64,000 nucleotides of DNA from positions 124,001 through 188,000 of IMG/VR virus record IMGVR_UViG_3300008110_000048. One strand, 5' to 3'. Below are positions 2,395 to 30,843 of the stretch, one piece after another (position 1 is the first letter of the stretch; the number at the start of each line of letters is the position of its first letter). The stretch is from a virus. A program made the translations under genes and the position numbers. The notes under the pieces are model-generated. The model saw only the letters and a program-made list of their open reading frames with translations. It had not been told where the DNA came from and did no database searches.

Positions 2395-5300
2395 TTAACT
2401 ACCGATTCTTCTAGGAATCAAAGCCGATTCCTCTGCACTAATCACCGCATCGCCTTCTATTTGTAGCTGCTTTGCGTATACTGTAGCGAGATTATTTGTT
2501 ACTAGTTCCCAGTTCAAGGTAACTGCATGTCCGTCTTCATAATACTCGTCCCAGAATATAGTAGGCCACTCTCTTGTCTTATTGTAAGTAGCTTCTAGAA
2601 CTTTATATTGAACTAAATCATTATATAGTTTATTTGTCTGCTGATTTGTTAATCCATATCTAACACTCGTATCAAGCAAGACGGATATTGGAGCAGTATA
2701 AACTAACCCTAATACGGACAATGCGCTCAATATAGATTCTTTTTTCACGAAAAGGGGAGAATCTTGATATATTGAATTAAAGAAAGAATCCTTAATTTTT
2801 TGCTCGGCTCCAGCACCAGTTTGGTTCCCTATAAAGCAGCTTTCTACAAAGTCCTTTGCCGACTGAACTATCGACTCTGGCTGGTAATACCATACTGTTC
2901 CAAGAGTTCTCTTTGAGTCTGTAACATCTTTGGTATAATTAGCTACAGTATTTTGTTCAGCGCCAGCTTCAAAATCTGACTCAGATATAACAGAGCTGGA
3001 CGCAGCGTTACTTATTCTTATTCTTAAAACAACCAATCTATTTTCCAATTTAGACTGAACAAATATTTTGGCTTTACCTCCAGGAGTAGTAATTGATGTC
3101 ATTGTTGTTGAAGGGGTCGAAGAATCGCTATAACTTACTCCTAGATCACCATCATTTGAGGTAACGGTAAATGTATTTGTTTCGCCTGAGTTTATGCCAT
3201 CAAATCTTACGGTAAATGTTGCACCAGAGATAACATCTTCTACATCAAACGTGTCACCATCTTTGAATTTAGTTATCTTAGCGATAACGCTAAATAATGA
3301 TGGCTGTAAATCAGTTCTATCTGGCCCCAAGCCACTCAACTGCAACACCCTTGCATGAACAAGAGCATTTTCATAGTCTATGTATCTAACTAGATCTGTT
3401 ATCTGCTTTTCTTGCCAGCCAAGACTCTTAAGGAGATCATCACTTCTAACAAAAACATTTCCTTCTGGAGTTCTAACCTTAGTTCTTGCGCCGAGAAGTC
3501 CAGGTAGCAATACTTTAGAGTGGTGCTTGCCAACGACCATTCCCTGATTGTAGGATAAGCCTGCATCCATTGGTTGACCATTTTTATTTAGGTATTGGAC
3601 ATAGCAGCCGTGTTGATCTAGCACATTATCCCTAATCCATTTCCATCCCTTCCATGCCAATTGGCCAACTATCGGTACCGACAAAGCAATTCCGAAACCG
3701 GCTGCACCAGTTGCTCCAGCTCCCGCCGCCGCAGCGGCAACGCCTACGCCACCAGTTAGCGCCGTTGTCATTCCCTGAAAAACTGTTCTACTCGCAGAAG
3801 AACCATATTGTTGAATGACAGTTTCTGCTCTTTTTGGAAGAGTCGTAGCAGTTTGATTTGCCATTACATCTTTAACTAAAGCCGTAGATCCGTGAGTAAA
3901 CTGCAGACCGCCAATCATTTGTGGGCCTAAAGCGTCTGATAGTCCATCTATAGATATATTTCCTCCTACATTTATTCCAGTATTTGAGGCCATTATATTA
4001 TCCATGTAGAAACGTGTATCATTTCTAAGATTTTGCACAGTGAACCAAGAGTTGATCCAAGAAGTCAAGAACCATCTAGCGGGATCATTTACGGTCACAA
4101 GCGCATTCGGAGTAATTGATGTAATGTATCCCATTTCGGGAGTAAAATGATGGACAACTTGCTCTACCTCAAAAATTCCATACATTCTTTCGTAAACATC
4201 TGACAAATAAACCAAGTCATGCGGACGAATATCTGCATTACCTATAACTATGAGCTCTCCACCATATATATCTTTGATGGATTCCTTCAAGTGAGCTAAG
4301 GCTATTCTTTTTGCGGAAAGTTCATCAGGTGTTCCTTGAACATTCTTCGCAATTCCTCTAATCGTTTCCATTGGATGCATGATTGGATGAAGTACGCCCA
4401 AGAAACCTGATCCTACAAAATTATCATAATACAAACCTGTTTCAACAGTTTTTTCAGTTTGACGCTCTGCTGGAGCACCTTTATCTAAAGCTACTGTAAT
4501 TGGATATTTACCATCTGAAACTGCGGTAACTACGGTTGACACGCCATTCAAATTCTCTTGAATCTGATTTGATATAATATGAGAAAATGAACTTAGATAA
4601 TGGATTCTTTGGAAGGGCTGTCTGATTTCCAATACGGGTTCGCCATATTCGCGAGTAAACGGATTATCAACAGCCCTTAATAAGGTGCCCTCTCTTCCTA
4701 ATGAATAATAAATAGAGTCATTCAGAACTTTGTTTAAAATATGTGCTTGCTTACTAAAATTGCCAACCTCTGAGATGGCATAACCCATTTGCATCATGGA
4801 AAGCTTGAACATTCCAAGAAGACCAGAAAGACCGTCACCTATTGCGGTCATAATTGGTCCGATATTTCTATCGTAGAAATTACCAATATCTTCAAGTGTT
4901 CCAGAAATAAATGTCGTAGCACCAGTTCCCTCAGATTTTGTTGAAACTAATAATTGAAGGAACTTATTGTCATCCTTAGCGTACTGGCTATATGGATTTA
5001 TGAAAGCCTCAAATATCCTATCGATAGGTTTGAATGACCACTGACCGTCAGATCCTCCGCCTCCACTCGTAATTAAACCTCTTTTACGGTTAGGCTTCAA
5101 AACCAACCATGCTCTGCCATAGGCTGAGTTCCAAAGCTTTTGCCTAAATAAACCAACCATTAAAAGGAAAAGCTGTTTTGGAGTTTTAATTTTTTCATTT
5201 AGAGCAATGGCTTCTTCTGGTTTTTTGGAATTATCTAACGCGTATTCAAGAATTGTATTAATTACTGGAGAGTCAAAAAAGTTTTCTCTAATACCATTAA

Positions 5301-8300
5301 GTGCATCAGCAATTGTTGAGTTAAAGTATTGAATGATTCCGGCGTCTGACTCGTTTTCTGCGGCTATTAAATCTATATAATTTTTTCTTATAAACTCTAC
5401 TGCTTTTCTTCTTTCAATTGCATTAGTTATAGGAACGCCTTGCCCACCTAGTTGTGGATTGTTTGGAATATTAAAATAGTCAGCGCCCAGCAGGATTGCT
5501 AATTCATCGACAGCTGTATTTTCGGTATCAGCCAGTCCAGCAATTGGAATGTTCGAATCCTCAAAGTTTTTAAAACTATCCTCAATAGAAGATCCTAATA
5601 TTCTAGAAAACTCTTCTGGGAAAGGATCAATGGACTCTGGATCCATTCCGTAAACTTTTGCAAATATTCCCTTAACGCTATCGTATGTGTGATATCCAAA
5701 TCTAAATTGATCCCATATGTCATTTGCTTCACTAAGATTTCTTCCATCACCAGCTATGACCGAAACATTAGGGTCAAAATTCTCATCATAATAAGATCTA
5801 GCTTCTACTCCAACAGAATCCAATGGATCATACACACTTAAGAATGCAGCTCTTCCTTTGGCGGAATCTACATCTCCAGTTGTTGATAATTCTTCATCCA
5901 AAATAGAATACAAATACTGTCTAGACAAAGAGCTATCACCAATCATGTCGGCAACTTCGCCATCAAGAACAGACTGATCAATATTTGAAACATCACTAAA
6001 GCTAGATATTTCTAACAAAGTATTAAAATAACCAGAGAATGGTTTATCTCTTCCATCTGGTACGGCTAACGCATTACCGCCAAAATCAAATCTACTAGAA
6101 GAGATCTCAGCATTTACTGGAACCCATTCTGAGAATATATTTGGTGGATCCACTAAATCTTTATCATAAATTACAAATCTTGAACTAATACCTCCACCTA
6201 GTTCATTTCTAAGATCTTGAGCATTAGCTTTCCTTGCTGTTAATTCAGCAAGTTGGCCATCTTCTGTCATTGTATAATTTCCAAATCCAAGAATCATGCT
6301 ATCAGCCATTGAGGGGCCGTCTTTTGCTTTAAACTTTTTGATAGGAGCTGCAGAGGAAGATACAACGCCTACAGGAACATCATCTGGAACAAAGGCAAAG
6401 AGACACTCTACTGGTTGCGGGTTTATAGATAAGCCACTTTCGTTTTCGTAATTTAGCTCATCTTCGTTGCCAAAAATAGATACACCTAATCTGTTAGCTA
6501 TCTTACTTCCTATAATGCCGGCACCGCTGGTAAAGCTTAAAACTTTACCGGCGTAACCTATCAAATTATTTTTAAAATCACCAACAGCCTGTACTGCGCT
6601 TAGTGTAGTGTTAATCCATGACGGAAGCTGATCTAATATACTTGTTTCCTCTTCATCAGCTGACAATTTAAAACTTAGGTCTTTAGATACAAAGTTGCCC
6701 AAATACCAGGCGGCGTCGGGTGAAACAACAGCTGCTGTGTCATCATCATCTTCGCCCCAAAGGAAGTATGCCGGAGCGCATACAACAGCTCTATTAGTTC
6801 TAGGGCTAACTACTAAGACTTTTCTATTTTTATAATCTTGTGCTGTTCCATACAAATCTGTAAAATTATATTTTTCTTTAAACTTTTGTATGGCCTCGTC
6901 AGAAACATTGATATCATCACTACCAGGATTATATGGCCATCTCATCGCTATGTAGAATTGTTCTGCTTCAGCAGCTGTTTGTTGAGAAGCCGGTAGGTCA
7001 CCAGGTGAACCCCATTCTTCATATGATATTTGGTTTGCCAATTCATACTCGAAAGAATAATCATCTGCATTTCTTTGCGCTTCAGAAGAAGTTACAGAAT
7101 ACTGAGAAAGAGCAGCTTGATCAAGAGATATGCTAGGTCTATTTGCGTAAACTGATGGTAAGGGCATTCTTACATATGTTGAGGTTGCTCCGCCAATAAA
7201 TGACAAACCATCCACATCAACCATATTGTCTATAAAAGTTGAGAAGCCTAAAGGACGATCTAATTCTAATATTCCAGAAGACGGCACTAGCGTTAGTTCA
7301 TTATTTAAAATGAATTTGCTTTCATACTGAAGTAGGGTGAACATATTTGCCATAAATGTTGCACCACCGAAAGATCGTCTGTCTTCTGCCATAGCCTCAT
7401 TGACAAATCCCTCAAATTCTTCGGCGTCCATGGGCACTTCGCCTTCGTTTGCCAAAAACTTTCTTCCAGATTTTCCAATATCCTTGAAGTGACTTGCAGC
7501 GTTCTCGAAGACCCCACCGTCTCTAACGGTATATGATGTCGTGTCTAATATTACTGTTTCATTTATAGTATAGAATGGGTACCTAAATCTTGGTGGAAGA
7601 TTGTCTAATTGGGCGTGATTATCGCCTGCCTGAGCTATTGTTGTTGTGGGATCTCCAACAGGAAGGTGGAAACCAACTCTTGTTAATCCAACAACCGTTG
7701 GTAGTTTTGCAACTATTTTAGTTGAACCATCTTGCTGTGTTTCAGAAAATGTTGCAGCTAACGGTGAGTTAAAGTTAATTATTTTTTCTTTCAAAAATGC
7801 CGTAGGCTTATAGACACCTTCGGAATTCAACTGATCACTCGCAAGACTGGCCATTGTATCAGAAAGTTCATTAGACCTCTTGAACGCCTCATAGTCAGCC
7901 AATGTGTTACTGGATTTGTTGATGTTATTCATGATATTTTCGATGTCTTCGTCCGGCGAACGATACTTTGGATAGCCTGGCAAACTTAATTCAGATCCCC
8001 TCTCTGTACTAGGAAATCCTGTAGTTACAGGAACAACTCCAGAAGTATAAAGCCAGTGCGGTTTACCATAAAAAATTGTAGATCTATCTTCAAATGGTCT
8101 AATTGCAACAATATAGTTTGGAAGCAATCGGGCACAAACTTGGAAAAGATCCCAAACAGTTCTCATGTATGTTTGCGCTCTAAATGAAACCTCATCAAAA
8201 CCAGGTAGGTCGTCGTCAGCATTTGGTGCGATAATTCCCATTAACCTAAAGAAGTTTGTTCCGCCTCTTCCTCTGAGAATTCCAAAAAGACCTCCCCCAG

Positions 8301-11300
8301 AAATTCCTGCTCCAGCAGCAAAACTTACTCCAGGTATCAATCCGATAGAACCAGCTAAGCCACCCATAAGTATATTTTTTGTAGCGTTAGCTCTACCTTC
8401 AGCAGCTACGAGCTTGTTGCCAGCTGTCATTGTTCCTATGGCCGTCCTCGCTGAAACAGACTCATTTTGAGCTTCAACTATAAGTCGATTCCATGATCTA
8501 TCGACACCTCTTTCAAGGTACCCTTGTCCCTTTAATTTCTTGTCATCCTGTTCCACAAGAGAGGACGCAGTAAGCCACCCATCATCTATATCTCCACCAA
8601 GGAATTGGGCAAAACCTGTTCCATTTCCAGGATAAATATTTCTCTTAAATATTTCCAAGTCTACTTCGGCACAGAAGTTTGACATGAGTTGCCCCATGCT
8701 TGTCATAATTCTTCCATCTCCGAAAAATGTACTAACAGGGTTGTTTGTGAAAACATTTGTAGCTAATTTAAATGATGCGGCATTAGCAGCACCACCTACA
8801 TCGCCTTGTCCAAGGTTAGAGTAAACACTAGCGACTACATTTCTAATTCCATCAGCTCTTGCTCTTTCAGATTCGCTTAATGGTTCATATAACGTTGAAC
8901 CAAAATGACGAATTCCAAATCTATTTTCAGAAAAAACAGTTCCATTTGTGGCTCTAGCAAAAGCTTCTCTAAATCTTGACGCACCCATAGAAAGAAGTCT
9001 CACCATAAGATCTCTAGGCTCAGAAAGATACATTCCTGTATCTATGCCACCATCTATTTTTCCAGTGTCACCTTTTTTGTTTGTAGAGTTAACTATTGCG
9101 CCAAGCTCAATAGCGTCAGACTGCGCAGTAACTGTTACGATTTCTCCTTGCTCAACATTTGTTATGACGCCATTGAAAACTGTTTGTAGAGAATTTGGAT
9201 TTGCTCCATATCCGACTCTTAGATGAACACGAACACCAGGCTTTAGTCTAATATTGTTAATGTCAATTACATAATCGTTTCTCATTCCAGAAACAATATT
9301 TTTAGCTATATTTAAAGTTCTATCCAAGATAGATTCAATGCCTTGAGTAAAATCTATTGGTGCATCGCTTGGTTGATTGTCTCTAGAATTAAATATTTCT
9401 GTAGAAGGACGAGTAGTCAACTTTGAATACATGTTGGACACTCTAAATATTAACGTGTCCCCTAGAAGATCTTCTGAAGATACAACAGAAAAATCTACTA
9501 TAGATTGCATTCCATAAAAATTGTCAAACAGCTTAACTCCGGCAAAAAAGCCACCTTCGTCAATTAGCCACAACATATAAGTAGGAAATGCTCTAATCAT
9601 TCTTCCAGAAATGTCTCGATACTGGACATCATTCATCATCTTCTGTATGTGGCCACCAAAAGATCCATCATAAGCTTTTTGATATTTATCCAGAGATTGT
9701 ACGCCCTCAACTCCAGTAAGCGTATTTGTGCAACCCCTATCTGGAGTTTGTGTATCTTCTATATGATTTTCTGCTAGTCTCTTATTCCCGTTGTCATCTA
9801 TATGAACATTTGAACCATCGACTGTTAGATAGAATCTTCCATTATCTTTATTGATATAACCAAAATGGGTCCCCAATGCAGACTGCATCATTGCAGGTAC
9901 TTCTGATTCTGATCCAGATTCTTGCGGATTTGTTGCCGGAATCATATATATCACTTTATGGAAATCTACTTCATCTGGATTAAAGCTAACTTCTGTTTCG
10001 TTTGCCAAGTGTGAATCTGATAAAACTTCTTTAATTAAATTTAAAGTTTCTGCGCTTGTATATTTTAGATTACCAACAGAATAGCCTGCTCCAACAATTT
10101 CTTCAAATACTGGACTATCCTCTGTGGATTGTGCTGCAATAAAGATGTAGTCAGTTAATAATCCTTGTTTTTCTGAAGTTTCAAATTCAGAAGTTTGAGT
10201 TTGTATAACTTCTTGAAATAAAGAAACAAAATTATGAACACTTATACCGCTACTGTTAACGTAGCTAATAATTTCATTTATTAATGTCTGATTGTTGCTA
10301 GCTCTTTGAGCTGCGGCAAATGGTTCGCTTCCAACATCCCTATAGGCGTAGCGTCTAAGGAAATCTGTAATTCTATTTTTAACTTGATTTTTTCTGATCT
10401 CTATAGCGCGAGCATCCCCGAGCTTTGCCCAATCATCACTGTAATCAAATTTGAATTCTTTTGTTATATCGGGTTGATAAATGAAGTTATTAATAACATC
10501 TTTATCGAACATTTCAAAGCTTCTAAAATAAAAATCTGGATCTAAGTTTCCAACGACTTCATCATTTTTATCGCGAACCTCCAGTGGCATATCGGGATAT
10601 GCATTAAACGCTCCCCACAACTGCTTAATTCTTAAAAATGGATTTCTCTTTGAACCAAAATGTTCAATAAAATCACTTTGCTGTTTTGATGAAAGCTTTT
10701 CTCTTTGCTGCTGGAATATATCAAAGTCGACAAGGCTCAATTGCACATTGTATACGTGCGGATAATTAGGTATAGTATCTACTTTAAAATTCAAAGGAAT
10801 AACATATTTAATTCCGCACAATGCAGTAATAATATTTTTCATCCCCAAGAAACCAATAACACCAGTTGAGTGCTCAAGTCTGGCTAAAGAGTTAATGTGA
10901 TCAAAGATTGCTCTAATCTTATAAAGCTCTCTTTCGCCAAAAACAGTCATTGATATATTAACATAAGAATCTTTTCCGCCTATATATTGATAGGTCGGCT
11001 CATCCTGCATTTGAACCTGTAGCTTTGCAAGATTGTTGCCAAGACTTATGCTAACGCCGTTGACTATAGCTTTTTTAGGATCTAAATCAACCCGATTCAT
11101 GGGAACTTCCCATTCCTGGAAGTGGTAATCTCCCTCTCTTAAACGCTTAGCCTCCATAAGATTCTGCACATAACCGTCTGAAAAGAAACGATTATACAAG
11201 GAAAGCATGAATGCATCAGTTACTTGCTGTCGCACCTTTTCTTCGTCAGGAACAGCTATTTCGACACCTAAAACTTTTCTTCTTTCAACTTCTTCAATGA

Positions 11301-13515
11301 CTAAAGTATCTATGATATTGCCTGATTGAAAAACAGAATTCCATATACTTCTTTTAATGAAGTTTAAGCTAACATTATCATTTTCATCATTAAAAACTGG
11401 ATCATTTAAAATGTATGATCCCTCTGTTGGATATTGCGAGAAGTAATCTGCATCGTAAGGCATCTCATCTGGACTAAGGTATTTTAGTAGCCATTCCTTT
11501 TCTTCAGCGCTTAATTTAATTAAGTTGCTGGAAATAAAGGATTGCATCTTATACCTATAGATACCAGCCCTGTAGTCAGATTGACTAACTCCAGCGGTCA
11601 TAATGTCTACTGCTTGACGAACAAATGTTGCCGTAGAAGAAGCAAATGTTGGCTCCAAAGAAAGAGACTTAACTTGGTTTATATCTTTAATTGCTGGCGT
11701 ATTAGGAGAAATCTCGATTCCAAATTTTGCTAATAAGCCATTCCATAGGCCATAACTTTGTTGATCTAGAATTTTTTCTTGTTCACTTCTAAAAGAAGTA
11801 GTGTCTGGCAAGAACATTTTTGTCTGAGTTTCAGCTGGAGTATAAAAAGTTAAGTTACTTCCATCTCTCCACTGAGAAACTATATTTGTATACAAAACAT
11901 CATTCTCATAAGTATTAAGTAATTCAACTGTATCATCAGTCAAAGAAGAGTCAACAATTGCCGATTCGCTTGTCACTGAAGAACCATAAGGGCTAGTCTG
12001 ATATATGTAATCCCCACTGCGAATCAAGCCAGTATTATCTTCGCTCTCTTCAGAATTTCTATTATCTGAAGTCTTCAACAAGAAAGACTCATTGGCATAC
12101 TTGTGCATTGCGCCAGCAGCCTTGCCCATATACTGCCTATATTTACCCCAGTGAATGGCTTGGTTAAAATCTTTAACCATAGGTAGAAATGGCTTATGAT
12201 TGTAGCTAAGTAACTCAAGATCAACCATTAAAGAAAAAGGATAATTAGGCACTGTTGAAATAGACATAGAAGATAGGGCTACAGCGGTAATTCCATGAAC
12301 AGAATTTATATAATCATTTTTTATCGGGAGTATAGGTGAATATTTAAAAGCTGCAATTAGACCTCGCAAAGAAGAAAGAAACTTATCTATTTTTTCTTCT
12401 GAATCACCACTACTCTTAAAGTCTATTTTAAAATTTTCTTTCAAATTTATTGACGAGGCATCACTTATGTGCATGCCCCATATTTCTTGATAGTTTGGAA
12501 AAAATAGTCTTAGAGAAATTGAAGTCTCTTTATATCCTGCATTATATTTGGGTGTATTTCTTTGCCTGATTGCTCCACCAGTAAGTGATCCAGTTTTGAA
12601 AGCCGAATTAACTGTAACAGAAATAGGCGGAACATAAAAGTTTGCTGCGCCTAAACGAAGATGAAATATATCGGGCTTTTTAGGAGGTATATTTGCTCTA
12701 AATGGAAAATCTTCTATAGCCTTACGAATTCTTGCCGAAGTATTCCCACCATTAATTCTGAACGCCATTGTGAATATTGGTTCACCATTTGGCGCTACAC
12801 CAAAAGCTTTCTCTAACTCTTCAATCGCGTCTTCTTCTCTATTGAGAGTATCTTCTCTTCCCCCACCTTTACCGGCATTAGAATAGTCGCCAGTGACAGC
12901 TAGTGCATCGAAAACGAAAGTCATTAACCCTGGAAGGTAATGATTAATAATAGAAAAAGATATTGGATCTGCTTGCAGACTGTAAACTACTTGACTCAAA
13001 AGAGTTAACCATTGGGTATCTACAGCTGGATCTACATGGTAATCCAATGACTTTTGGGTCATGTAAACATTTTGAAGCCTTTTTTTGCCAAATTCACTTA
13101 TTTCATAAGCAAATGATGCAAGATACAGTAGCCCTGTTGACTCTAGCCTCTTATATAAATTAATTAAGAGAGCGCCATCGTCAACAAGAGAAGATAATGT
13201 TCCGCCAGAAGTAAATACCCTACTGGTTGCTTCAATTCTTTTTTGATAATTGTCTGTATCGGATTTAAAATCCTCTGCTCCACCTGGATCATCAAAATTT
13301 TTTAAATCTGGAATAACATCTGGTCTTGTTATCGAGAAGAACCTTTCGATTGCCTCAAGTGGATTACCTGTAATGTCATCAATACTGCCAGTCAAGCCAA
13401 GCGGGCCAATCATCATCATATTCATAAAAGCCTTTTGGCTATAGTCATATGACAATGGATCAGAAGAGTTTAGATTCTGTTCTCCTTCATTTTCTGACTG
13501 CTCAACATTAGACAT
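2395..13515 (-). CDS. Giant fused baseplate hub protein (3706 aa) with SNase-like domain
   Basis: This is the largest gene in the window. Residues about 250-450 and 830-1000 look like two diverged copies of one beta-rich module, each ending in a VPNYPF- or IPNYPH-like motif and a hydrophobic strand. Residues about 1330-1500 resemble gp27/gpD-type hub domains (KPGVRVHLRVGYG, then VFNGVITNVEQG and VTAQSDAIEL). Near 3090-3150 another hub-like stretch occurs (DLVYLSDVYERMYG, VVHHFTPEMGY). Gly/Ala-rich hydrophobic segments lie near 1710-1750 and 3248-3292. Residues about 3409-3560 match the staphylococcal nuclease pattern: DGDT (D3421), VRFDGINSGE (R3437, E3445) and KRTLGTVW (R3536), but the position equivalent to D40 is N3442. 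Flanking tail genes support a baseplate hub role. Nuclease activity is uncertain. Confidence 0.8.
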   Translation of the reverse strand: MSNVEQSENEGEQNLNSSDPLSYDYSQKAFMNMMMIGPLGLTGSIDDITGNPLEAIERFFSITRPDVIPDLKNFDDPGGAEDFKSDTDNYQKRIEATSRVFTSGGTLSSLVDDGALLINLYKRLESTGLLYLASFAYEISEFGKKRLQNVYMTQKSLDYHVDPAVDTQWLTLLSQVVYSLQADPISFSIINHYLPGLMTFVFDALAVTGDYSNAGKGGGREDTLNREEDAIEELEKAFGVAPNGEPIFTMAFRINGGNTSARIRKAIEDFPFRANIPPKKPDIFHLRLGAANFYVPPISVTVNSAFKTGSLTGGAIRQRNTPKYNAGYKETSISLRLFFPNYQEIWGMHISDASSINLKENFKIDFKSSGDSEEKIDKFLSSLRGLIAAFKYSPILPIKNDYINSVHGITAVALSSMSISTVPNYPFSLMVDLELLSYNHKPFLPMVKDFNQAIHWGKYRQYMGKAAGAMHKYANESFLLKTSDNRNSEESEDNTGLIRSGDYIYQTSPYGSSVTSESAIVDSSLTDDTVELLNTYENDVLYTNIVSQWRDGSNLTFYTPAETQTKMFLPDTTSFRSEQEKILDQQSYGLWNGLLAKFGIEISPNTPAIKDINQVKSLSLEPTFASSTATFVRQAVDIMTAGVSQSDYRAGIYRYKMQSFISSNLIKLSAEEKEWLLKYLSPDEMPYDADYFSQYPTEGSYILNDPVFNDENDNVSLNFIKRSIWNSVFQSGNIIDTLVIEEVERRKVLGVEIAVPDEEKVRQQVTDAFMLSLYNRFFSDGYVQNLMEAKRLREGDYHFQEWEVPMNRVDLDPKKAIVNGVSISLGNNLAKLQVQMQDEPTYQYIGGKDSYVNISMTVFGERELYKIRAIFDHINSLARLEHSTGVIGFLGMKNIITALCGIKYVIPLNFKVDTIPNYPHVYNVQLSLVDFDIFQQQREKLSSKQQSDFIEHFGSKRNPFLRIKQLWGAFNAYPDMPLEVRDKNDEVVGNLDPDFYFRSFEMFDKDVINNFIYQPDITKEFKFDYSDDWAKLGDARAIEIRKNQVKNRITDFLRRYAYRDVGSEPFAAAQRASNNQTLINEIISYVNSSGISVHNFVSLFQEVIQTQTSEFETSEKQGLLTDYIFIAAQSTEDSPVFEEIVGAGYSVGNLKYTSAETLNLIKEVLSDSHLANETEVSFNPDEVDFHKVIYMIPATNPQESGSESEVPAMMQSALGTHFGYINKDNGRFYLTVDGSNVHIDDNGNKRLAENHIEDTQTPDRGCTNTLTGVEGVQSLDKYQKAYDGSFGGHIQKMMNDVQYRDISGRMIRAFPTYMLWLIDEGGFFAGVKLFDNFYGMQSIVDFSVVSSEDLLGDTLIFRVSNMYSKLTTRPSTEIFNSRDNQPSDAPIDFTQGIESILDRTLNIAKNIVSGMRNDYVIDINNIRLKPGVRVHLRVGYGANPNSLQTVFNGVITNVEQGEIVTVTAQSDAIELGAIVNSTNKKGDTGKIDGGIDTGMYLSEPRDLMVRLLSMGASRFREAFARATNGTVFSENRFGIRHFGSTLYEPLSESERARADGIRNVVASVYSNLGQGDVGGAANAASFKLATNVFTNNPVSTFFGDGRIMTSMGQLMSNFCAEVDLEIFKRNIYPGNGTGFAQFLGGDIDDGWLTASSLVEQDDKKLKGQGYLERGVDRSWNRLIVEAQNESVSARTAIGTMTAGNKLVAAEGRANATKNILMGGLAGSIGLIPGVSFAAGAGISGGGLFGILRGRGGTNFFRLMGIIAPNADDDLPGFDEVSFRAQTYMRTVWDLFQVCARLLPNYIVAIRPFEDRSTIFYGKPHWLYTSGVVPVTTGFPSTERGSELSLPGYPKYRSPDEDIENIMNNINKSSNTLADYEAFKRSNELSDTMASLASDQLNSEGVYKPTAFLKEKIINFNSPLAATFSETQQDGSTKIVAKLPTVVGLTRVGFHLPVGDPTTTIAQAGDNHAQLDNLPPRFRYPFYTINETVILDTTSYTVRDGGVFENAASHFKDIGKSGRKFLANEGEVPMDAEEFEGFVNEAMAEDRRSFGGATFMANMFTLLQYESKFILNNELTLVPSSGILELDRPLGFSTFIDNMVDVDGLSFIGGATSTYVRMPLPSVYANRPSISLDQAALSQYSVTSSEAQRNADDYSFEYELANQISYEEWGSPGDLPASQQTAAEAEQFYIAMRWPYNPGSDDINVSDEAIQKFKEKYNFTDLYGTAQDYKNRKVLVVSPRTNRAVVCAPAYFLWGEDDDDTAAVVSPDAAWYLGNFVSKDLSFKLSADEEETSILDQLPSWINTTLSAVQAVGDFKNNLIGYAGKVLSFTSGAGIIGSKIANRLGVSIFGNEDELNYENESGLSINPQPVECLFAFVPDDVPVGVVSSSAAPIKKFKAKDGPSMADSMILGFGNYTMTEDGQLAELTARKANAQDLRNELGGGISSRFVIYDKDLVDPPNIFSEWVPVNAEISSSRFDFGGNALAVPDGRDKPFSGYFNTLLEISSFSDVSNIDQSVLDGEVADMIGDSSLSRQYLYSILDEELSTTGDVDSAKGRAAFLSVYDPLDSVGVEARSYYDENFDPNVSVIAGDGRNLSEANDIWDQFRFGYHTYDSVKGIFAKVYGMDPESIDPFPEEFSRILGSSIEDSFKNFEDSNIPIAGLADTENTAVDELAILLGADYFNIPNNPQLGGQGVPITNAIERRKAVEFIRKNYIDLIAAENESDAGIIQYFNSTIADALNGIRENFFDSPVINTILEYALDNSKKPEEAIALNEKIKTPKQLFLLMVGLFRQKLWNSAYGRAWLVLKPNRKRGLITSGGGGSDGQWSFKPIDRIFEAFINPYSQYAKDDNKFLQLLVSTKSEGTGATTFISGTLEDIGNFYDRNIGPIMTAIGDGLSGLLGMFKLSMMQMGYAISEVGNFSKQAHILNKVLNDSIYYSLGREGTLLRAVDNPFTREYGEPVLEIRQPFQRIHYLSSFSHIISNQIQENLNGVSTVVTAVSDGKYPITVALDKGAPAERQTEKTVETGLYYDNFVGSGFLGVLHPIMHPMETIRGIAKNVQGTPDELSAKRIALAHLKESIKDIYGGELIVIGNADIRPHDLVYLSDVYERMYGIFEVEQVVHHFTPEMGYITSITPNALVTVNDPARWFLTSWINSWFTVQNLRNDTRFYMDNIMASNTGINVGGNISIDGLSDALGPQMIGGLQFTHGSTALVKDVMANQTATTLPKRAETVIQQYGSSASRTVFQGMTTALTGGVGVAAAAAGAGATGAAGFGIALSVPIVGQLAWKGWKWIRDNVLDQHGCYVQYLNKNGQPMDAGLSYNQGMVVGKHHSKVLLPGLLGARTKVRTPEGNVFVRSDDLLKSLGWQEKQITDLVRYIDYENALVHARVLQLSGLGPDRTDLQPSLFSVIAKITKFKDGDTFDVEDVISGATFTVRFDGINSGETNTFTVTSNDGDLGVSYSDSSTPSTTMTSITTPGGKAKIFVQSKLENRLVVLRIRISNAASSSVISESDFEAGAEQNTVANYTKDVTDSKRTLGTVWYYQPESIVQSAKDFVESCFIGNQTGAGAEQKIKDSFFNSIYQDSPLFVKKESILSALSVLGLVYTAPISVLLDTSVRYGLTNQQTNKLYNDLVQYKVLEATYNKTREWPTIFWDEYYEDGHAVTLNWELVTNNLATVYAKQLQIEGDAVISAEESALIPRRIGS

Positions 13516-28018: not shown

Positions 28019-28816
28019 CTATAGGTGCAATCTTCCAGGCTGAATAACCTGGGCTGGAACTGTGGGTTTATTATATTTTGTATTATAATAAGCTGTTTCT
28101 TCAGCTTGACTTTGTAGCTGAGCAAGATCCGTTATAATCAAATCGCCAAAAACATTTGTACTAATTTGATCCCTAGCCTTCATTTCATCTGTATAAGAAG
28201 TATCTCTTGATACAGTGCTGTCATTTGGCATTCTTACTAGTGGTTGTATTCCTCTAGCCATGTAAGTGTAGGTCTGCTCTGTAATTAAGTCGTCTACAGA
28301 CAGGGTTTGGCCTTCGTCAACTATTGTTACTCCAAATATTTTCATTTTTGAACCGAGACCGTATTCATTGAAAAATGTAATAACAATATCAAATGGCGGC
28401 AACATGTCCGCTAGAGGGGCAAAGTATCCAGTTTTTCTTGCCAGATATTGCTTAAACTCTTTTATTCTATAAAAAGCGTATTCGTTAAATACTGTAAAGA
28501 TGAGGCTGCCAGCTATAGTTCTTCCACCCTTAATAAAGCCCCGAACATTAACGTGACCAAGGGTTCTTACTGGGGAATTTTCTCTGTGGACAGAATATGA
28601 TATAGTCTGTAACTCTCCTAGATTTATAGAATCGCCTTGAGACTCAACATTTCCATCTGGACCGATAATCGGCAAAACGATTGTCGCAACAGCGTCTGCC
28701 CCAGAGTATGACATTGTTGATAGATATTTTTCCCAGTCATAAAGGTCATTACCACTTTGCTGAACTGCTTCTTCTTGTTTACTTTTTCTAAAAGTAAATG
28801 TCTTAATTTCTGCCAT
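28019..28816 (-). CDS. Tail tube-fold protein 2 (265 aa)
   Basis: I prefer the ATG at 28816 (MAEIKTF) over an ATG 45 bases upstream, because GGAG sits seven bases before it and the longer form would run through a terminator hairpin. The core matches tube protein 1: YSGADAVATI, ISYSVHRENSPVRTLG, the shared block GSLIFTVF, PPFDIVITFFNEYG, IFGVTIVDEG and TYTYMARG. A hydrophilic N-terminus and an extra loop (near residues 40-60) distinguish it. The terminator between it and the main tube gene suggests lower expression, as expected for a minor ring component. Confidence 0.75.
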   Translation of the reverse strand: MAEIKTFTFRKSKQEEAVQQSGNDLYDWEKYLSTMSYSGADAVATIVLPIIGPDGNVESQGDSINLGELQTISYSVHRENSPVRTLGHVNVRGFIKGGRTIAGSLIFTVFNEYAFYRIKEFKQYLARKTGYFAPLADMLPPFDIVITFFNEYGLGSKMKIFGVTIVDEGQTLSVDDLITEQTYTYMARGIQPLVRMPNDSTVSRDTSYTDEMKARDQISTNVFGDLIITDLAQLQSQAEETAYYNTKYNKPTVPAQVIQPGRLHL

Positions 28817-28824
28817 TAAAATCT

Positions 28825-28866
28825 CCAAAAAATAAATAAGTGCATGGAAGATAACTCCCATGCACC
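28825..28866 (-). terminator. Intrinsic terminator after the main tube gene
   Basis: On the minus strand an 8-bp stem GTGCATGG/CCATGCAC with a 10-base loop is followed at once by TTATTTATTTTTT. It lies between the main tube gene and tube-fold gene 2, whose Shine-Dalgarno site overlaps the end of the T-run. It probably lowers but does not abolish expression of downstream tail genes. Confidence 0.85.
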
Positions 28867-28889: not shown

Positions 28890-29552
28890 TCAGGGTCTGA
28901 TAATTGTTGTGTTCAATCCCTCGGGTGTTATTCCTACCAAATTGGTTGGATCAACAAGAGTGTCATTTCTGATTGTGTACATAGGACCAAGTTCACGAGC
29001 AACATAAGTCATGGTTTCTTCGATGACAATGTCGTCCATGGAAGCGCCAGAACCTTCGTTAAGAAGTTCTACGCCGAATATTGATCTAACAGCTGCCTGA
29101 CCATACTCGTTGGCAAATGTTACGGTAATGTCAAAAGGTGGAATCTGGTCAGCGTAGAAAGGAACCTTTTTTACAACGCCAGTCTTCTGTTCGTTGACAT
29201 CAGCAATACCTCTTCTGTGACCATTGTCGCCAGGAAGTGTATTGTGGCTTCTGGTGTAGAAGTCCATTGGTCTATTTTGCGAATAGTTCTGATCTAACAT
29301 CTTATATAGAGCTGGGCGATCAAATACTGTGAAGATCAATGAACCAGCTATACCTCTTTTGCCTCTTGAGAAAGAGCGAGGATTGGGTGATCCCATGGTG
29401 TAGATTGGAGCCTTTTCTCTAGTGACGGAGAAGGTGATACCCGAAAGCGCACCTATTTCCACTCCACCAAATGTAGCTACAATGTCTGCACCTGAGAATG
29501 TGGTATAAGTATTGAGATACTTATTTACTGATGTATATTCCTCTGCGGCCAT
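28890..29552 (-). CDS. Main tail tube protein (220 aa)
   Basis: This is the shortest of three tube-fold paralogues, with the core order FSGADIVATFGG, ITFSVTREKAPIYTMG, GIAGSLIFTVFD, PPFDITVTFANEYG, IFGVELLNEG and TMTYVAREL. It follows the sheath gene by 28 bases, the usual sheath-tube order. A strong AGGAGG site, a terminator just downstream and a G/C-richer coding sequence than its neighbours point to high expression. I therefore take it as the hexameric tube subunit that polymerises along the tail and conducts DNA. It is a soluble virion component with no signal peptide or membrane segment. Confidence 0.85.
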   Translation of the reverse strand: MAAEEYTSVNKYLNTYTTFSGADIVATFGGVEIGALSGITFSVTREKAPIYTMGSPNPRSFSRGKRGIAGSLIFTVFDRPALYKMLDQNYSQNRPMDFYTRSHNTLPGDNGHRRGIADVNEQKTGVVKKVPFYADQIPPFDITVTFANEYGQAAVRSIFGVELLNEGSGASMDDIVIEETMTYVARELGPMYTIRNDTLVDPTNLVGITPEGLNTTIIRP

Positions 29553-29580: not shown

Positions 29581-30843
29581 TTATAGATTAATGGCTACTC
29601 TGACTTCGATCTCTTTGAGTTCGAAGGCAGGTGTTAAAATGAGGTCTACAATCGCCTTGTTTTCATTTGGTATGTACGAGACTGTAAAGTCACTACCAAG
29701 CAAGGCTCCTACAATTTGCATTCCTCTCAAGCCAGAAGTGATTGCTGTCTCCATCGCATTTCTTGTTTGAATGTTTGATGGTTCGCCAACAAATCTCTGG
29801 CAGGCTTGTCTTACAACTGATGTGGCGTCGTCTACAATTCTCTTTGTTGAGAGACGGGTGTAGTCTGATGTTGCCCAACCAAATGTTAAACCTTCTCCGA
29901 ATACTGGAATCTTATTAAAGTTAATGACAACAGTATTAACACCCTTAGTAGCGAGAGCAGTCTGCTGAGTTCTAGAAGGGGCATAACGAACAGCCTCTAC
30001 ATTGTAGAGAGCCTTATTTACTAGTGAACTATATGAAGGAAGCAAGCTTAAAGCGCCAGCAACATGAGCGGCTCCGTTAGCGTAACCAAACTCTGTTGTT
30101 CCAGACTGATAGTTTACGGGCTTGATTTCCGCAGCGACTACAACCACATATGGGCCAACTTCTTTGAAGGAAGCGCTAGCATTTCTGTCGGGAAGATTTG
30201 TCAGTGCCAAATGTGTAGAAACTTGACCAGGAGTCATAGTTTCTGTTGTTGAAACGTATGGCTTGACTCCCATGATTGCGATGCAAGGGTTGATGTTTTC
30301 AGAAATATCCTTCACCTTTGCAGCTACCTGATAGGCCCAGTTGCTTGATGGGGTTGACGTATTATCTGCAACAAAGCCAATTTTTGCGTCATCGCTAGGC
30401 GTAGCTGGGCTCTGCCAATCGTCTGGGTGAGCGCCTCTTCCCCAAGGAATAATAATGTCGGGAATAGCAGCTTCTGCTGCAATAAAGGCAGCGTCGAAAA
30501 CCGAGCCACCATAACTTACGCTAGTTACAGTTCCAGTAGATACAGGGCTATCCGGATCAGTGTCCCACTTTGTATCAGAAGGAAGTGGTACAATATAAAT
30601 TCTTCCAGCTCCAGCCAAAACTAGCTCTAGATATGCACGGTGAGCGTCTGATCCATCTCCAAAAGCGGTGATTACATCAGCCTCGTTAGTTACTCTTACA
30701 ACGTCAAGATCTGCTACTGAACCAGTATTGTTAGCCGTGCTACGACGTGCTATCGCTACTATTCTAGGACCAACAGGTGTATCCTGACGCGACACACTGT
30801 AGAAGCGATCTCTAATTAATGTTTTTACTCCAGGTATAGCCAT
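29581..30843 (-). CDS. Main tail sheath protein (420 aa)
   Basis: The product has the length and order of phage sheath proteins. The N-terminus has IRDRFYSVSRQDTPVG. The middle has an alpha/beta domain (IYIVPLPSD, PDIIIPWGRG, KIGFVADN, GPYVVVVAAEIKP). The C-terminal domain has a characteristic run VVRQACQRFVGEPSNIQTRN followed by closing strands (KAIVDLILTPAFELKEIEVRVAI). It is the contractile outer tube. It lacks the N-terminal Ig-like module of the other sheath-fold gene (31821-33416). It has a GGAGG site about 12 bases before the ATG, its own candidate promoter in the 112-base upstream gap and G/C-richer codons, so it is likely the highly expressed sheath. Confidence 0.9.
   Translation of the reverse strand: MAIPGVKTLIRDRFYSVSRQDTPVGPRIVAIARRSTANNTGSVADLDVVRVTNEADVITAFGDGSDAHRAYLELVLAGAGRIYIVPLPSDTKWDTDPDSPVSTGTVTSVSYGGSVFDAAFIAAEAAIPDIIIPWGRGAHPDDWQSPATPSDDAKIGFVADNTSTPSSNWAYQVAAKVKDISENINPCIAIMGVKPYVSTTETMTPGQVSTHLALTNLPDRNASASFKEVGPYVVVVAAEIKPVNYQSGTTEFGYANGAAHVAGALSLLPSYSSLVNKALYNVEAVRYAPSRTQQTALATKGVNTVVINFNKIPVFGEGLTFGWATSDYTRLSTKRIVDDATSVVRQACQRFVGEPSNIQTRNAMETAITSGLRGMQIVGALLGSDFTVSYIPNENKAIVDLILTPAFELKEIEVRVAINL

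Follow-up and report, generated by a model that had tools for sequence, protein, structure and literature searches.

Profile comparisons and a predicted structure show that the C-terminal domain of a 3706-residue phage baseplate hub protein belongs to the staphylococcal-nuclease (SNase) superfamily (PF00565) as a divergent member. Our preferred reading, to which we lend somewhat more than even credence, is that the hub C-terminus is an SNase-superfamily enzyme in an exchangeable slot and most likely a competent metal-dependent nuclease in the tail tip. The hub gene lies in the window, i.e. the whole 64,000-nucleotide stretch of DNA that was analysed, which comes from a virus record of 193,454 bases. 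The virus is a freshwater phage and belongs to a large lineage whose members are mostly uncultured. The following features are given with their positions in the window (unless stated otherwise), the strand and the residues of the hub protein.

2395..13515, minus strand: baseplate hub protein, 3706 aa (open reading frame and core blocks common to named hubs)
3511..4641, minus strand: last hub core block, residues 2959-3335, directly N-terminal of the SNase domain
2827..3303, minus strand: SNase-like (OB-fold) domain core, residues 3405-3563 (AlphaFold, Foldseek, hhalign); the bounds are approximate, from ~3303 down to at least 2827
3250..3261, minus strand: D3419-G-D3421-T3422, corresponding to SNase D19-G-D21-T22 (kept in 53 of 53 intact relatives)
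3205..3207, minus strand: R3437, corresponding to SNase R35 (invariant column and profile alignment)
3181..3192, minus strand: N3442-S-G-E3445, corresponding to SNase D40-T-P-E43 with Asn for D40 (invariant E43 and profile alignment)
3088..3180, minus strand: first insertion, residues 3446-3476, Thr/Ser-rich, a predicted beta-hairpin (relatives and model)
3046..3084, minus strand: predicted alpha-helix 1, residues 3478-3490, PGGKAKIFVQSKL (AlphaFold model)
2917..3012, minus strand: second insertion, between strands 4 and 5, residues 3502-3533 (model and alignment)
2908..2910, minus strand: R3536, corresponding to SNase R87 (invariant column and profile alignment)
2398..2826, minus strand: C-terminal tail, residues 3564-3706, a helical stretch followed by the conserved motif WDEYYxDG..LNWELVxNNLAxVY
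G000:C1:94208-94468, outside the window (L001), minus strand: canonical stand-alone SNase (PF00565, E 7.7e-15)

The hub protein contains five gp27-like core blocks (residues 284-466, 775-1016, 1284-1539, 1771-1821 and 2959-3335), which are common to KLEB27-3 gp035, MTATph1 CDS0032 and the hubs of Bacillus and Paenibacillus plasmids. Its homologue KLEB27-3 gp035 is annotated as 'putative baseplate protein' and links the window hub to the 'baseplate hub protein' of phage ME3: a search that started from the hubs of KLEB27-3 and MTATph1 retrieved ME3_37, which is annotated as a baseplate hub homologous to that of 0305phi8-36. The best viral match in a Foldseek search with the model of the C-terminal domain was also annotated 'Baseplate hub protein'. 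These homologies bear out the hub identity proposed in an earlier, sequence-only reading of this DNA and support the assignment of the protein to the class of 0305phi8-36/T4 gp27-type baseplate hubs. The gene lies in a contractile-tail gene block with a tail sheath at window positions 29581-30843, and a Baseplate_J wedge (L199:17395-18564) was found just downstream of the hub. Two adjacent genes near the tail sheath (window 28019-28861 and 28890-29552, minus strand) both matched PHROG 9206 'major head protein'; they are possibly tail tube paralogues that are mislabelled in PHROGs.

The sequence-only reading had recognised SNase-like motifs in this protein, and we found D3419 and D3421, R3437 (in V3436-R3437-F-D-G), N3442, E3445 and R3536 (in K3535-R3536-T-L-G) at the residue numbers it gave. 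The segment N3442-S-G-E3445 also contains the two exchanges that it had noted, Asn for D40 and Ser for T41. Its coordinates for the domain, 2970-3300, cover most of the motifs but omit R3536, and the domain reaches at least to 2827. Between E3445 and R3536 it had estimated an excess of about 45 residues caused by one Thr/Ser-rich insertion. The distance is 91 residues compared to 44 in SNase (+47), so the estimate was close, but the alignment and the model divide the extra length between two insertions: ~+23 residues before helix 1 (the beta-hairpin) and ~+25 between strands 4 and 5. The length of the first insertion varies strongly among relatives. As for the C-terminal tail, the conserved motif might be where the SNase fold ends, shifted by a helical insertion, which is suggestive only. 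In the alignment the tail segment falls at the place expected of SNase alpha-2, though alone it scored no better than shuffles, and on that ground we regard the identification of LNWELVxNNLAxVY as a displaced alpha-2 as unsupported. Neither the alpha-2 region nor Y113/Y115 could be placed confidently in the window hub domain.

For the fold and homology comparisons we gathered relatives of the domain from viral contigs. With 11 close sequences AlphaFold gave a poor model (pLDDT 50.8). The model based on 44 diverse relatives had a pLDDT of 78 and the element order beta1-beta2-beta3-alpha1-beta4-beta5-alpha, as in SNase, with an uncertain placement of alpha2. In a Foldseek search of the PDB the top 50 matches were all SNase or SND1, with moderate TM-scores (~0.5 on the target) and E-values of ~1e-3, not one of them below 0.001. 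The search of BFVD placed another baseplate hub protein first (E 2.9e-12) and thermonuclease-like proteins after it. The hhalign comparison of the family profile with seven SNases gave a probability of 95.5 and a score of 57.6 over 89 columns, and the alignment puts DGDT, R35, E43 and R87 in the SNase register. Among the controls, 60 column-shuffled profiles did not exceed a probability of 1.2 and the reversed profile reached 0.57. Against the stand-alone SNases that the virus itself encodes, taken together with relatives of these, the profile-profile probability was 92.6. With the SNase domains found at the N-terminus of other hubs hhalign scored higher (97.2).

Searches with the window hub protein alone against Pfam and PDB sequences gave no SNase match, and a profile search of the PDB found no SNase. 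PF00565 matched 8 of the 44 aligned domains weakly (best E 0.0068), any other Pfam family at most two of them, and the window copy is below the curated PF00565 cut-off. As this cut-off is a detection threshold and not a biological feature, we file the domain as a divergent superfamily member. The structure prediction, a check that the sequence-only reading had proposed, gave the SNase element order with SNases as structural neighbours in both databases and so bore out the fold. The hhalign match is strong at the family level; the single window protein has no match to PF00565. Weak Pfam matches to Ins_allergen_rp, STIV_turret, Sos7 and others were scattered and below their cut-offs, and we dismissed them.

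To see how the active site is retained across relatives we used a hub core block as the query, because searching with the SNase domain itself would bias the sampling. We surveyed the best 80 of 186 confirmed matches, and hubs more distant than these lie outside the count. The C-terminal domain was present in 78 of the 80 hub loci, and the remaining two (L218 and L219) are truncated where their contigs end; the SNase domain is fixed in the window hub lineage. Of 68 distinct copies, 53 contain the complete set of D21, R35, E43 and R87 and 15 have kept at most two of these residues; no copy has kept three. D19 and T22 were also present in all 53 intact copies. In an earlier set of intact relatives, 12 of the 157 columns in the SNase part were invariant, including D21, R35, E43 and R87, and under random placement the chance of all four catalytic residues falling in those columns is ~2e-5. 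All eight degenerate copies of the same set have other residues for T22, E43 and R87, and L067 alone also for D21 and R35; the remaining seven invariant columns are unchanged.

The degenerate copies in the survey form one clade of 14 and the separate copy L284, and the tree requires two losses, although the position of L284 is unsure because of its long branch. The C-terminal domain of L284 has GGDY, Lys for R35, ETER for D40-E43 and Asn for R87, and it is apparently a second, independent degeneration of the hub SNase. Judging from the residues, we read the degenerate lineages as having lost catalysis and kept the fold, and the window lineage as being under purifying selection on catalysis. 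The sequence-only reading had left the choice between a nuclease delivered at the tail tip and an OB fold recruited for structure. The all-or-none retention (53/15/0) favours a division of the two: the enzyme would be active in the window clade, and the two degenerate lineages would have reused the fold for structure. As a point against an active hub nuclease, the degenerate clades show that infection can proceed without the hub active site, though several of these viruses retain the stand-alone SNase.

D40 is a Ca2+ ligand of SNase, and the Asn at this position (N3442) counts against an active hub nuclease. Across the 53 intact copies we observed N in 45, D in 5, Q in 2 and A in 1. The stand-alone SNase occurs in most of the related virus records and resembles cyanophage SNases, and every copy of it that we read has Asn at position 40. 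The exchange is thus common to both proteins, which argues for a family trait and not for decay, and the role of the Ca2+ ligand would be replaced or dispensable in both.

The pattern of hub enzymes in related systems suggests that the SNase of the window group occupies an exchangeable C-terminal enzyme slot, in which homologous hubs hold peptidoglycan hydrolases. Behind the last core block we found Lysozyme_like in B. licheniformis pBL141-2, Glucosaminidase in P. urinalis and a VanY/M15-like domain in MTATph1. Moorella phage MTATph1 (CDS0032) and Bacillus phage KLEB27-3 (gp035) have the closest named hubs and sheaths. Both hubs carry an SNase as well, but at the N-terminus (PF00565 E 4.4e-8 in MTATph1; E 0.043, under the Pfam cut-off, in KLEB27-3), and where MTATph1 has the VanY/M15-like domain the window hub has its SNase. 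The hubs of the Bacillus plasmids pAD3 and pN497 are annotated 'nuclease' and have an N-terminal DGDT. The homologous hub of Acinetobacter phage ME3 (ME3_37, AND75198.1) contains a full PF00565 domain (E 4.7e-14), which unlike that of the window hub is internal (~residues 1097-1241) and beside a Peptidase_M23; the weak similarity of this hub to core blocks one and two lies N-terminal of the SNase. The higher hhalign score with the N-terminal hub SNases (97.2) is compatible with one fusion event or several. Compared to PF00565 SNases in general, the window domain shares the OB fold, DGDT and the register of D21, R35, E43 and R87, and differs in its fusion to a hub, the two insertions of ~47 residues in total between E43 and R87, a poorly recognised alpha-2 and a score under the Pfam cut-off.

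Fusions of hub and SNase have been described before. Hardies et al. 2007 (PMC2147016), the only report of a tail-tip thermonuclease found in the literature searched, described an N-terminal SNase domain in the hub of BtI1, a phage-like string of Bacillus thuringiensis israelensis, proposed an intragenomic transfer from stand-alone genes and called its purpose 'not obvious'. Both proteins combine a gp27-type hub of the 0305phi8-36 lineage with an SNase; in the window hub, compared to that description, the SNase is C-terminal, has two insertions and is not matched by Pfam as a single sequence. The same authors drew the comparison with the T4 gp27-gp5 tail lysozyme complex (PMC2147016). By analogy the window protein would likewise place an enzyme at the hub end of a contractile tail, but one that is nuclease-like instead of a lysozyme and is part of the same chain as the hub. 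The literature searched gave no description of a C-terminal hub SNase, of its fixation in a lineage, of an all-or-none active site or of a recurrence at three hub positions.

Three other explanations have to be weighed against an active nuclease. It is very improbable that the resemblance to SNase is due to chance, with short acidic and basic motifs occurring in a beta-rich domain. The null results of the single-protein searches and of the PDB profile search would fit such a coincidence, but it is contradicted by the fold search, by the profile-profile comparison with its shuffled controls and by the invariance of exactly the catalytic residues. Considerably more plausible, though still unlikely, is that the SNase-derived OB fold is non-catalytic in the window virus as well and serves the hub structurally, e.g. 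as a plug, as a connector or for binding. The domain does persist in two lineages with the active site erased, D40 is Asn, and the long insertions together with the conserved C-terminal tail suggest roles in hub assembly. A role in structure alone would not lead one to expect that 53 distinct and strongly diverged copies retain D21, R35, E43 and R87 jointly and that no intermediates occur. This lineage-wide pattern of keeping or losing the active site suggests that the tail tip carries a working enzyme that would cut DNA or RNA, even if a nuclease beside the DNA exit channel would be a hazard to the phage.

Where an active enzyme would work is a related matter. SNases generally cut both DNA and RNA and the domain adjoins the last core block at the hub C-terminus; both points could be taken to mean that the nuclease enters the host with the genome and degrades the host chromosome, plasmids or competing phage DNA early. 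We consider this improbable, since free Ca2+ is low in the cytoplasm, the domain is within a 3706-residue structural protein that has no visible release site, and the same viruses carry a separate, well conserved stand-alone SNase, which would be better suited to intracellular DNA than the hub SNase. An active hub nuclease would meet whatever the tail tip meets. SNase requires Ca2+ at extracytoplasmic levels, and if the hub enzyme needs Ca2+ its natural site would be the cell exterior or the periplasm. Metal preference varies within the family, however, and a Mycoplasma SNase prefers Mg2+ (PMC3585158). In the mechanism that we propose, the hub nuclease would act outside the cytoplasm, where Ca2+ is abundant, on extracellular or surface-bound DNA or RNA met during attachment and envelope penetration; such nucleic acid would be the simplest target. 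The dependence on Ca2+ would spare the phage's own genome after entry. The enzyme would work alongside cell-wall-cutting functions, and since ME3 and MTATph1 combine an SNase with a cell-wall hydrolase, it may take part in the passage through the envelope. In the record of the window virus the SLT family was detected at G000:7193-7375, far from the hub, and searches for M23, NlpC/P60 and Glucosaminidase found none.

As a wider and more tentative proposal, which we rate at somewhat less than an even chance, contractile-tailed phages would have repeatedly equipped the hub core with an active Ca2+-dependent entry nuclease, in three places, and two lineages of the window group would then have dropped catalysis and kept the fold. 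Hub-borne enzymes are usually regarded as cell-wall cutters. If the proposal is true, the tail tip digests nucleic acid besides the cell wall during infection, and an intact nuclease in the same slot over a long divergence would imply that nucleic acid is an entry barrier or a target, e.g. eDNA in biofilms or on the cell surface.

We also observed irregular hub reading frames among the relatives. In L249, L251 and L237 (same region as L081) the hub ORF stops inside the SNase domain, after strand 4, and the remainder of the L249 domain, from R87 onward, is encoded by an overlapping ORF in a different frame; the ORF end may be either a sequence error or a programmed frameshift. In six further loci (L250, L258, L268, L272, L276 and L287) the hub gene is broken into at least two ORFs between core blocks, and the points differ. 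An Rfam search for introns at the gathering threshold, covering six loci (L249 included, L276 excluded), found none. In the six split hub genes from L250 to L287 the SNase domain is located on the last piece.
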